Under the pieces are notes generated by a model. It did no database searches. It was not told the DNA's origin and saw only the letters and a program-made list of their open reading frames with translations. A stretch of 64,000 bases of DNA. It comes from Liolophura sinensis. Taxonomy: Eukaryota; Mollusca; Polyplacophora; Chitonida; Chitonidae. Each line of letters starts with the position of its first letter. Position 1 is the stretch's first letter. The stretch lies in the NCBI RefSeq assembly GCF_032854445.1, contig NC_088307.1:28426484-28490483 (forward strand). The letters run 5' to 3'. Below, in pieces: positions 17,630-33,891 of the stretch. A program made the position numbers and the translations under genes.

Positions 17630-18207
17630 CTAAACCGTGCTTAACAGGACACTTGGTAGCGCCACCGAGTTACCAGTTTCGAGACGAACTGAGGCTGACT
17701 GTATTAAGTCGCCATGAAAATCCACTGACGGTACAAGAGGTTTGGACACATCCACGTTGTTTATGGTAAGGATTACAGAATTTTGTTCACAGTCTACGAT
17801 CGTCAGTCTTCCAGTCTCACACCACAGTCGGAACCCAAGGGTGTATAGCTCTTGGAAAGGAATCCATTTTCTAAAACGTTCTTTGACCATACCACATTCA
17901 CTGTTAACTTGTGATTTGTCTTCGTACTTGCTAATCCCAACCCACCAACTTTCCACACCTGCTTTACCATTCAGTGAAGAGCCCTTGTGCCTCACACCGG
18001 CTGTAAATATACACCGTGGGGTCTGCCTCTCACATGACGACGGTTTCAAATGGACCTGGAGCTGCCAGAAATGGCACCTTGTCTGAAAGCAACCATCTGT
18101 CCAGGCTTCACACCATTCAGCAGGACCTTCCTGTGTGCAGACCATTGTGCCATAGGCCTCAATCCCCAAGCTTGTGTGAGATGTTTTTATGAATTTCAAC
18201 CATGGCA
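17630..18207 (-). CDS. SPRY (B30.2) terminal exon, possibly shared by TRIM modules A and B
   Basis: A pyrimidine-rich acceptor ending in CAG precedes the exon. The exon opens in phase 1 (two bases complete a codon) and ends with TAG at 17630; it supplies 191 residues plus the stop. The hallmark stretches are VPWLKFIKTS, CHFWQLQV, WWVGISKYED, LGFRLWCETGRLTIVD and VSKPLVPSVDF. Exon 5 of both RBCC modules ends in the matching phase, so either can splice here in frame. It is the only intact SPRY exon I find on this strand in the window. Confidence 0.8.
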
Positions 18208-21200
18208 CTGCAACAAACAACAAACGAAACTTGCATAAGAATGATAATACACGCTAAAACAAAGCGTGTCTTCTCTAAAGCACACTTACCAGCCCCGATG
18301 ACTCAGTTGGTAAAGCGTCCTACACGGGACGGTAAATCCAAGGTCAGTCCTGGGTTATTTGATTGGTGTTTTATGCCGTACTCAAGAATATTTCACTTAT
18401 ACGACGCGGCCAGCATTATGGTGGGAGGAAACCGGGCAAAGCCCGGGGAAAACCCACGGCCATCCGCAGGTTGCTGCCAGACCTTCCCACGTACGGTCGG
18501 AGAGGAAGCCAGCATGAGCTGAACTCACAGCGACCGCATTGGTGAGAGATTCCTGGGTCATTACGCTGCGCTAGCGCGCTAACCAACTGAGCCACAGAGG
18601 CCCGCCCACCTGACCTTAAAGGAGGAAGTTGTAACCTTCTCGCTTGGCGTTTAGCATTAAGAGGATTGTGCAAAGACTGCTTGACCGGTATCAGTATAAT
18701 GACTTGGGTGGGGCGGTTGAATTGCCCTCGGTAAGTCATCTCAGTGAAGTAGCACGAGATAAAAGAGCGGTGGAAATCCGTCCTGCAAGGAGGCACATTA
18801 CACATACATGCACTCTAAAGACTGCTTCGTCCCCATAAAACTTGTTAAGTACGACGTTAACCCCTATACACACTCACACACTCTAAAACACACTCCTTCA
18901 CCCACGTGTAAACCAACCATTCTTTTCCTTTTCAATTAATGATATCGTCGTTTTTATGGTTTATAAACTTTAACCAACCTATTTACACCAATCATGCTAA
19001 AACAATCATAATGAGGTTTTTAATTTTATCTGATGTGTCACGTTTGATACAGCTTTGTTTCGTTGTGCCCTTTGGAGTTAAGTAAACTTACTATATGTGA
19101 CAGCACACTGCTTGTAATTAACACATCTGTCGGTCATCATGACTACGACGTCATCAGCAGTTAGCTGACAGATAGTGCACGTGTGTCACAGAAGACAGAT
19201 ACGGTGTTGGCAATAGTTAGCAAACACCTTTTCTGTACACACGCCTGTCACAGATGACAGTTACGGTGTTGGCAATAGTTAGCAAACACCTGTTCCGTAC
19301 TCACGCCTGTCACAGATGACAGTTACGGTGTCGCTAACAGTTAGCTAATAGCCATCCTGTACACACATCTGTCAAAGATGACAGTTAGGGTGTCACTAAT
19401 AGTTAGCCATTATCCGTTCCGTACACACGTCTGTCAATGATGAAGTTACGGTGTCGCTAATAGTTAGCTAACAGCCATCCTGTACACACATCTATCACAG
19501 ATGACAGCTACGGTGTCACTAATAGTTAGCCACTATTCGTTCCGTACACACATCTGTCAAAGATGACAGTTACGGTGTCGCTAACAGTTAGCTAATAGCC
19601 GTCCAGTACACACACATGTCACGGATGACAGTTACGGTGTGGCTAACAGTTAGCCAATAGCCATCCTGTACACACATCTATCACAGATGACAGTTACGAT
19701 GTCGCTAACAGTTAGCTAATAGCCATCCTGTACACACATCTGTCACAGATGACAGTTACGGTGTCACTAATAGTTAGCCACTATCCGTTCAGTACACACA
19801 TCTGTCACAGATGAAGTTACGGTGTCGCTAATAGTTAGCTAATAGCCATCCTGTACACACATCTATCACAGATGACAGCTACGGTGTCACTAATAGTTAG
19901 CCATTATCCGTCCCGTACACACATCTGTCACAGATGACAGTTACGGTGTCGCTAACAGTTAGCTAATAGCCGTCCCGTACACACATCTGTCACGGATGAC
20001 AGTTACGGTGTGGCTAACAGTTAGCCAATAGCCATCCTGTACACACATCTATCACAGATGACAGTCACGGTGTCGCTAACAGTTAGCTAATAGCCATCCT
20101 GTACACACATCTGTCACGGATGACAGTTACGGTGTCGCTAATAGTTAGCCACTATCCGTTCAGTACACACATCTGTCACAGATGAAGTTACGGTGTCGTT
20201 AATAGTTAGCTAATAGCCATCCTGTACACACATCTATCACAGATGACAGCTACGGTGTCACTAATAGTTAGCCATTATCCGTCCCGTACACACATCTGTC
20301 ACAGATGACAGTTACGGTGTCGCTAATAGTTAGCTAATAGCCACCCTGTACACACATCTGTCACAGATTATAGTCACGATGTCACTAATAGTTAGCCACT
20401 ATCCGTTCCGTACACACATCTGTCAAAGATGACAGTTACTGTGTCGCTAACAGTTAGCTAATAGCCATCCTGTACACACATCTGTCACAGATGACAGTTA
20501 CGGTGTCGCTAACAGTTAGCTAATAGCCATCCTGTACACACATCTGTCAGAGATGACAGTTACGGTGTCGCTAATAGTTAGCCATTATCCGTTCCGTACA
20601 CACATCCGTCACGGATGACAGTTACGGCGTCGCTAAAAGTTAGCTAATAGCCACCCTGTACACACATCTGTCACAGATTATAGTCACGATGTCACTAATA
20701 GTTAGCCACTATCCGTTCCGTACACACATCTGTCAAAGATGACAGTTACGGTGTCGCTAACAGTTAGCTAATAGCCATCCTGTACACACATCTATCACAG
20801 ATGACAGTTACGGTGTCGCTAATAGTTAGCCATTATCCATTCCGTACACACATCTGTCACAGATGAAGTTACGGTGTCGCTAACAGTTAGCTAATAGCCA
20901 TCCTGTACACACATCTATCACAGATGACAGCTACAGTGTCACTAACAGTTAGCCATTATCCGTCCCGTACACACATCCGTCACGGATGACAGTTACGGCG
21001 TCGCTAATAGTTAGCTAATAGCCATCCTGTACACACATCTGTCACAGATGACAGTCACGATGTCACCAATAGTTAGCCACTATCCGTTCCGTACACACAT
21101 CTGTCAAAGATGACAGTTACTGTGTCGCTAACAGTTAGCTAATAGCCATCCTGAAGATACATCTGTCACAGATGACAGCTACGGTGTCACTAATAGATAG

Positions 21201-32700: not shown

Positions 32701-33891
32701 CTGTCACAAATTTATTACCGTAATTCTTGAGATAAACTAGTATTTATTTATTTACCTGATTGCAGCATTTACGCCGTATTCAAGAATATTTCACTTTTAT
32801 GGCGGTCAGCATTATGATGGGTGGAAACGGCTCGAGCCCTGGGGAAACCAACGACATCCACAGGTTGCTGGAAAAATCTTCCCACGCACTGCCAGAGAGA
32901 AAGCCAACATGAGCTGAACTTGAACACGCAGCGGACTGCATTGGTGAGAGGCTCCTGATTCACTAGGCTAAAGCTGACGTGCTAACCCCCTGGCCACGGA
33001 GGTCCCATGCATAAAGATAAACTAGTAAGGTTATTTGACATCAAAGCATGCATTCAAAGACTCCGACACCTTTGAAAATAATTTCCATCTACGTTCATTT
33101 CATCAGCCCTGGCAGTCTATAGTTAAATATTTCAGCTTGACTCGATATGTAAATCTGTCGTATTCTTGAAAGTAAGCGATAAATCGTTTAATACTTCATC
33201 GGCGACATACCTTAAGCTTTGCATACGCTGATAGCTTGTCACTCATTGGATGTTCACAATGTTCCTTCATCCAATCAAGACAACAGAGCTGTTGACAGGC
33301 GCCACAGTACAGGACCAGCGGCTTCTTGTGTGTTGTACACATGTCCAGGTCTTCATCTTTGGTCTTCTCCGGACTCTCCTTCTGCCTCTGGAGGGTGTAC
33401 ACTTGAACAGAAATCAGCCGGTGATGTTTGAATTTACCCCTCCTTGGATGGTGAGTTAGACAATCCTCACAGCAGAAAGTGTCACAGTCTGCACAAATCT
33501 TGACGGCTGCCTTTGCATTACCCTCTTCACACAGAGAACACCACTGTTCACAAGCCTCAACTTTGACCTCGACCTTTACCTTCAACCCGACCTTTACCTC
33601 TGACCCGACCTTTTCCTCCACTCTTGTCAGAGAGGTGTTGACAAAGCCAGCCACGCCTTCCCTCCACAACTTAGTTGGTTCTCGGCACATTGGGCAGGCT
33701 ACCAGCCAATCCTCTTCCGCCAGATCGGTCGAGGACTCTGAGGTGCCTTTAGGTTTAGACTTCTCAGCAAAAATAGCTATACACTCCCTACAGTGGCTAT
33801 GATGGCAGGGTAACTGTACCGGGTCACGGAGACTCTCCACACATATCGCGCAGCTCAGCTCCTCCTTCCCTGTTAGCCTCTCCTCACCCAT
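29715..33891 (-). CDS. TRIM-family RBCC module A (spliced; SPRY exon not adjacent)
   Basis: Predicted minus-strand exons: 33891-33211 (681 nt), 32651-32557 (95), 31109-30878 (232), 30195-30185 (11) and 29848-29715 (134), with GT-AG borders and continuous phase. Residues 14-69 form the RING (C14, C17, C29, H31, C34, C37, C66, C69). Residues 118-148 form a B-box 1 (CSLCEEG to CCEDCLTHH). Residues 185-214 form B-box 2, in which W207 replaces a zinc-ligand Cys. Exons 2 and 3 encode the coiled coil ([18 protein letters not shown]). Exon 5 ends in the phase that fits the SPRY exon at 18207, and the join would give 576 residues. No SPRY exon lies between this module and module B, so A either splices over B, ends without SPRY, or lost its own 3' exon. 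Likely role: E3 ubiquitin ligase or its regulator. Confidence 0.75.
30325..30472 (+). mobile_element. SINE family 1, 5'-truncated
   Basis: The core from about GGGAGGGTATGGCAGCAGCC to an AAATAAATAAAT tail. Its tail meets the tail of the next, opposite copy. Confidence 0.75.
30473..30595 (-). mobile_element. SINE family 1, truncated, tail-to-tail with its neighbour
   Basis: TTTATTTATTCTATTTGATT to AGAGCCCGGGGGAAA. The two copies form an imperfect inverted repeat of about 110-120 bp per arm in TRIM module A intron 3. Confidence 0.75.
31595..31890. repeat. Compound minisatellite with GTTCTGC...GCAGAAC palindromes
   Basis: Repeats of ATGTTCTGCATGGGGCAGAA within a longer unit of about 63 bp (ACGGGACAGGTCATGTCACT, then ATATACACC), in TRIM module A intron 2. 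Each short unit can fold as a 7-bp stem with a 5-base loop. Confidence 0.85.
31985..32492. repeat. 9-bp minisatellite (GGCCATACA / GGCTATACA)
   Basis: About 56 copies of a 9-bp unit, often as 18-bp pairs, in TRIM module A intron 2, ending 65 bp from exon 2. It creates long Arg-Pro-Tyr-rich (plus) and Ala-Cys-Met or Leu-Tyr-Gly-rich (minus) frames, which I treat as artefacts. Confidence 0.95.
32740..33006 (-). mobile_element. SINE family 1, near full length
   Basis: Runs from the TATTTATTTACCTGATTGCA tail to the CTAACCCCCTGGCCACGGAG head, in TRIM module A intron 1. Diverged. Confidence 0.85.

Follow-up and report, generated by a model that had tools for sequence, protein, structure and literature searches.

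An apparently complete TRIM gene and its probably SPRY-orphaned neighbor in a tandem cluster of the chiton Liolophura sinensis

Introduction

Several 5' modules precede one constant 3' exon in UGT1A and in the protocadherins, for which sharing of that exon has been proven by transcripts. The human TRIM6-TRIM34 readthrough locus contains adjacent TRIM genes with conjoined transcripts, each gene having its own SPRY exon. Here, we describe a locus of the chiton Liolophura sinensis in which two 5' modules encoding RING, B-box and coiled-coil (RBCC) regions, named A and B, precede one intact 3' exon, named S_B, that encodes a predicted SPRY (B30.2) domain. The locus lies in a stretch of 64,000 nucleotides (hereafter, the window; C13:28426484-28490483, C13 being the window's contig in a genome of 609,464,459 bases and 632 contigs). 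It resembles UGT1A and the protocadherins in having 5' modules before one 3' exon. We conclude that A is probably an SPRY-orphaned TRIM and that B with S_B looks like an ordinary gene, in a tandem TRIM cluster undergoing birth and death.

The closest described family is that of the teleost finTRIM (ftr) genes. In the finTRIM report (PMC2657112), the B30.2 exon is found downstream in more than 80% of cases and some genes are orphans. As described there, finTRIM clusters comprise a large tandem RBCC-B30.2 family with an exon encoding the RING and B-boxes (RBB exon) and a single B30.2 exon, features that they have in common with the chiton genes. The finTRIM coiled-coil exons given there are 96 and 234 nt long, compared with 96 and 231 nt in the chiton (95 and 232 nt in A), and the next exons are 154 and 60 bp, compared with 23 nt (11 nt in A) and then 134 to 140 nt in the chiton. 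The host also differs, being a chiton and not a fish, and the chiton B30.2 copy S_B is too divergent for Pfam. In a report on zebrafish trim genes, the original B30.2 exon of ftr06 is bypassed and the B30.2 of ftr52 is not detectable (PMC3137616). Like A, these are RBCC genes with a changed 3' end; they differ in that, as described there, a new domain was gained, whereas none was found for A. Literature searches on TRIM or B30.2 families of molluscs and chitons, and on SPRY exons shared between genes, gave no such report among the matches listed, which were mostly titles and hence are weak evidence of absence.

Results

Arrangement of the locus

On the minus strand of the window, the order is module A (33891-29715), module B (25115-22047), the SPRY exon (18207-17630) and an SPRY relic (4007-3626). 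These four elements had been proposed in an earlier sequence-only reading of the window, and each was recovered at these positions. All modelled introns of A and B are GT-AG and the frames are open. Exon 5 of both modules is in phase with the SPRY exon, and the joined frames have the lengths given in that reading, 576 residues for A and 515 for B. A and B each comprise five modelled exons and belong to a large, expanded family of RBCC-B30.2 TRIM genes. The relic and three relatives on the same contig served for comparison:

3626..4007, minus strand: SPRY relic with an intact acceptor, a stop after 69 codons, the middle missing and a recognisable 3' end
C13:28276150-28276818, plus strand: exon 1 of relative C (cluster 1), with its own SPRY match at 28287561
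C13:28297239-28297898, plus strand: exon 1 of relative D (cluster 1), with its own SPRY match at 28302360
C13:28419589-28415014, minus strand: relative E, an extra copy just past the window edge, broken, with exons 2, 3 and 5 and SPRY recognisable

No exon 1 was detectable in E. Between the SPRY exons of E, which is broken, and C, the synonymous distance (dS) was 0.33 and the ratio of nonsynonymous to synonymous distance (dN/dS) was 0.94. The synonymous distance to C is about equal for the SPRY exon of E (0.33) and for exon 1 of A (0.32). Because C and D carry one SPRY each on the same chromosome, A has most simply lost, or been separated from, an SPRY of its own.

Downstream of the SPRY exon of C, S_C, lie tandem repeats of about 101 bp (C13:28288076-28289126), and the final 18 codons of the SPRY are copied in many of them. 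A homologous array is located between the relic and E (C13:28424468-28425262).

Module A

The exons of module A are as follows, all on the minus strand:

33211..33891, minus strand: exon 1, encoding RING, B-box 1 and B-box 2, 227 codons, 681 nt; recognised by profile, Pfam and match to C
32557..32651, minus strand: exon 2, 95 nt, one base short of the 96 nt of B, C and D
30878..31109, minus strand: exon 3, 232 nt, with one base added at the start relative to the 231-nt exon of B, C and D
30185..30195, minus strand: micro-exon 4, 11 nt, versus 23 nt in B and in C; D has a candidate of 23 nt
29715..29848, minus strand: exon 5, 134 nt, phase-1 end at CAG|GTAGGT; 86.2 bits with a profile that includes this exon itself

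Micro-exon 4 is so short that it was identified only through its position, splice sites and phase. Exon 5 has the same length of 134 nt in C and D. Taken together, the missing base of exon 2 and the extra base of exon 3 leave the frame intact, which makes past translation of A across this junction very probable. Throughout A there is no stop and no net frameshift, and the modelled splice sites are canonical. In a simulation, the chance of finding no stop in the absence of constraint was 0.019 for exon 1, 0.061 for exon 3 and 0.20 for exon 5; these values are rough because only substitutions were simulated and A's branch was set to half of the synonymous distance. Exon 1 of A is 82% identical to that of C at the amino acid level over aligned codons, with a dS of 0.32 and a dN/dS of 0.31, the latter being a pairwise value in which A's branch is not separated from that of C. 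Both this ratio and the stop simulation point to constraint on A.

In Pfam searches, B-box 1 of A exceeded the cut-off (PF22586, 29.4 versus 27) and PF00643 at B-box 2 fell below it (21.2 versus 24.1). One Cys of this B-box 2 is replaced by Trp, the sole Trp among 30 aligned proteins (28 Cys and one gap), and A is thus predicted to have lost a B-box 2 zinc ligand. This change and the short micro-exon speak against A being fully functional at present. The eight RING ligand columns are all C or H in A, in B and in all 30 aligned exon-1 proteins, and several Pfam RING models exceed their cut-offs in A as well as in B. A looks like a formerly complete gene that is now without an SPRY of its own.

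Module B and the SPRY exon

Module B and the SPRY exon consist of the following exons:

24636..25115, minus strand: B exon 1, encoding RING and B-box 2 with B-box 1 missing, 480 nt; nearest to D exon 1 (tree support 100/99)
24269..24364, minus strand: B exon 2, 96 nt
23829..24059, minus strand: B exon 3, 231 nt
22892..22914, minus strand: B micro-exon 4, 23 nt
22047..22186, minus strand: B exon 5, 140 nt, phase-1 end
17630..18207, minus strand: S_B, predicted intact B30.2 (PRY-SPRY) exon with a stop, preceded by TTTGTTGCAG, phase-1 start

B-box 2 of B exceeds the Pfam cut-off (33 versus 24.1). Exons 2 and 3, which would encode the coiled coil, are conserved in position, length and sequence across the family copies compared. 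B with S_B looks like a normal, complete gene, although its exon 1 is without B-box 1.

S_B by itself matched no Pfam family at E values up to 1. Of the 28 exons aligned for the family, S_B included, 22 match PF00622 (SPRY) at E values no higher than 1 (best 2.3e-11), S_B not being one of the 22. A profile of the 28 exons matched the B30.2 chains of TRIM25 and butyrophilin in the PDB, with a best E value of 1e-4. The predicted structure of S_B has a mean confidence score (pLDDT) of 93.4 and is nearest to the PRYSPRY domains of MID2 and TRIM36 (E values of 4e-10 and 2e-9, TM scores of about 0.6, and 15 to 17% identity). With Pfam missing S_B alone, it is the paralogues, the fold and the profile that identify S_B as a divergent B30.2 domain. 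A search of the whole genome for the PRY family gave no match, which is uninformative because none was obtained in any control genome either.

Search for a second SPRY exon

With the SPRY profile, S_B scored 240.8 bits (17645-18205) and the relic 68.5 and 25.6 bits; with the exon-1 profile, A scored 303.6 bits and B 157.7 and 59.4 bits. These scores are high by construction because the profiles contain the window's own intact exons; independent support comes from the genome-wide protein matches, the Pfam RING and B-box matches and the predicted fold. The sequence-only reading had noted no SPRY exon between A and B, and the profile search bore this out: with the 28-exon profile run in six frames over the window and its flanks at E up to 10, no match was found between 29.7 and 25.1 kb.

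Seven poly(A) signals lie past exon 5 of A, the first at 28774; they were discounted as candidates for an end of A, such signals being too common in AT-rich DNA.

The family across the genome

Protein searches of the genome gave 104 and 121 SPRY matches and at least 151 and at least 154 exon-1 matches. Places within 1.2 kb were merged. Before pairing, a RING array (C3:25382897-25392815) was removed, along with isolated, distant TRIM-like matches on C1, C3 (20.3 Mb), C4 (8.3 Mb), C5, C8 (16.3 Mb), C10, C11 (6.8 Mb) and C12 (19.1 Mb). At least 110 SPRY places and at least 113 exon-1 places then remained, fragments included; these family counts are rough lower bounds. The pairings that follow refer to the matches listed. 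An SPRY on the same strand follows 92 exon-1 places at 3.6 to 19.1 kb (median, 6.9 kb), and 18 SPRY places lack an exon 1 as their next upstream neighbor. For long exon-1 places (at least 450 nt matched), an SPRY comes next within 40 kb in 88 of 101 and none does in 13, including A; one of these 13 ends at a contig edge and is uninformative. An RBCC without an adjacent SPRY is not rare in this genome. The gap between exon 1 and SPRY is 6.4 kb for B and would be 15.0 kb for A, a distance reached by three of the 92 pairs.

The SPRY start is in phase 1 at all of the 29 loci, out of 30, where the start was matched, as judged by eye, and the modules A, B, C and D share the end phase of exon 5. Because the family keeps one splice phase, any family exon 5 fits any family SPRY, and the fit of A says nothing about sharing. 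The in-frame joining of A to S_B was therefore rejected as evidence for a shared exon; it is expected from descent.

One RBCC followed by another RBCC was found in 10 cases. In six, the first member is a fragment with no more than 234 nt matched, and an SPRY stands at the end; in one, a 258-nt fragment comes first and no SPRY was met; and in one long pair no SPRY was met. Besides A and B, two long exon-1 matches before an SPRY occur only at C2:7334227 to 7352230. This interval contains an exon-3 match and no convincing SPRY, and with 200 N inside it proves little.

Additional long open RBCC exon-1 copies with no family SPRY within 40 kb downstream are present at C8:20421953-20422624, C8:33220290-33220838 and C2:9770962-9771633. 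A tandem RING repeat array of the same TRIM exon-1 family lies at C3:25385200-25392900, with a unit of about 186 nt and a higher-order spacing of 583 nt. The first frame of this array (25392872-25392000, 291 aa) contains a Met, three consecutive in-frame RINGs matched by Pfam and then a B-box-like stretch.

Trees and exon-by-exon divergence

An exon-1 tree was made from 12 rows (four from the two clusters and eight of the other 27 fetched loci). It contained the clades A+C and B+D, with support of 100/99. For SPRY, a protein tree of 17 rows (five from the two clusters and 12 of the other 26 fetched loci) and a second tree of 12 rows (five from the two clusters and seven other loci) were used.

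Divergence between neighbors is uneven from exon to exon. Synonymous divergence between A and C is 0.26 in exon 1 but reaches 0.54 in exons 3 and 5 (p 9e-5, Fisher test); between C and D, it is 0.36 in exon 3 versus 0.65 in exon 1 (p 6e-4); and between B and D, it is 0.38 in the RING part versus 0.83 in the remainder of exon 1 (p 2e-5). These p values are descriptive, since the exon pairs were picked after the distances had been seen. The match between A and C spans exon 1 and 46 nt upstream and ends 3 nt beyond the splice donor. Conversion or exon exchange between neighbors is the natural reading of this pattern, and could also account for the place of S_B in the SPRY trees.

Other features of the window and the assembly

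Very long minisatellites occur in and around the cluster, at 43444-46174 (27 bp, 101 copies), 19184-21394 (62 bp, 36 copies) and 37622-38721 (26 bp, 42 copies). Upstream of A, a frame on the minus strand at 40855-41766 resembles a Core-2/I-branching glycosyltransferase (PF02485, E 1.3e-39). Two near-identical frames of 389 aa with a partial RING-H2 end, at 54167-55336 and 59690-60859, are 5,523 bp apart and point to a recent tandem duplication. Elsewhere in the assembly, seven COX1 copies in steps of about 15.5 kb at C99:8348-102844, on a contig of 108,685 bases, represent head-to-tail mitochondrial copies and are probably an assembly product; the mitochondrial contig has 15,209 bases. Its order of genes and tRNAs, with the protein genes identified by eye, agrees with that of chitons.

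Discussion

The features described above are best explained if B with S_B encodes a RING E3 ligase that would dimerize through its coiled coil and bind its target through B30.2, a function suggested by the family. A would be a sister gene that was translated and constrained for most of its history. It may then have lost its own SPRY exon, or a rearrangement may have cut it off from an SPRY. Today A most likely yields an SPRY-less RBCC protein or stands at the start of decay; we infer in this way what its transcript ends with. Exons of the cluster appear to have been mixed among paralogues, presumably by exchange between neighbors, which would give exon 1 of A and the SPRY a history different from that of the exons next to them. 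The confidence we attach to this explanation and to the alternatives below overlaps and does not sum to one.

Three points weigh against the orphan explanation. First, S_B groups with the SPRY exons of C, E and the relic, and not with that of D (support of 91/89 in the 17-row protein tree and 89/93 in the 12-row DNA tree). The grouping apart from D was also obtained on codon positions 1 and 2 (83/92). In these trees, S_B is placed, with moderate support, nearer to S_C than to S_D (the SPRY exons of the relatives of A and B, respectively). Second, a search of the interval from 29.7 to 25.1 kb for a terminal exon of A with a known domain gave nothing: none of the 12 minus-strand open frames of at least 45 aa wholly within this interval, nor the read-through frame of A exon 5, had a Pfam match above the cut-off. 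Third, the intact exon-5 donor of A, its phase and its length of 134 nt suggest that use of a 3' exon in phase 1 ended only recently or continues.

It is rather unlikely that A is a pseudogene in decay that is no longer translated. Such decay would fit the Cys-to-Trp change in B-box 2, the missing SPRY, the one-base changes in exons 2 and 3 and the micro-exon, which lacks 12 nt in comparison with B and C; the neighboring E and the relic are already broken. However, A has not acquired a single stop or net frameshift, its modelled splice sites are canonical, and the two one-base changes compensate each other.

Sharing of S_B, as the sequence-only reading had proposed, is also unlikely. In that arrangement, A and B, each with its own promoter, would both splice to 18207, with A skipping the five exons of B, and two ligases would have one recognition domain. 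In a stronger form, the SPRY was originally A's exon and B came to lie within A's last intron. The retained frame, donor, phase and exon-5 length of A argue for sharing, as do the window's lack of a second intact SPRY, the grouping of S_B against D and its synonymous divergence of 0.44 from S_C versus 0.78 from S_D. Yet a tree uniting S_B with S_D survives the approximately unbiased (AU) test (p values of 0.090, 0.081 and 0.085), and in one 90-column segment out of seven S_B is nearer to S_D (56/81 versus 51/78 with S_C), so gene conversion could explain the grouping. The 15.0-kb gap, moreover, falls in the tail of the family. Of the original argument, the single intact SPRY, the failure to find one between A and B and the fitting frames stand, whereas the phase fit is a family trait and carries no weight. 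The specific history in which an SPRY ancestrally belonging to A was adopted by an SPRY-less, D-type B in A's last intron, and alternative promoters and splicing now place one B30.2 on two RING/B-box ends, is quite improbable.

A conjoined transcript, in which exon 5 of A joins an acceptor-like site whose end, at 25136, lies 20 nt upstream of the ATG of B, and yields a double-RBCC protein with one SPRY, is very improbable: the junction is in frame and stop-free to the end of B exon 1, but an in-frame fit is a one-in-three chance, and the site may instead be an acceptor after a 5' untranslated exon of B.

Read as an ordinary gene with an orphaned neighbor, the locus is what birth and death would commonly produce in a cluster of TRIM genes. 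If the exon were shared after all, two interchangeable catalytic ends would couple a single binding specificity to different ligase outputs, and the locus would illustrate how new TRIM combinations originate within a tandem cluster. Even without sharing, the analysis reveals in a chiton a large family of RBCC-B30.2 TRIM genes, with coiled-coil exon sizes near those of fish TRIMs, and the locus shows that neighbors have diverged unevenly from exon to exon.

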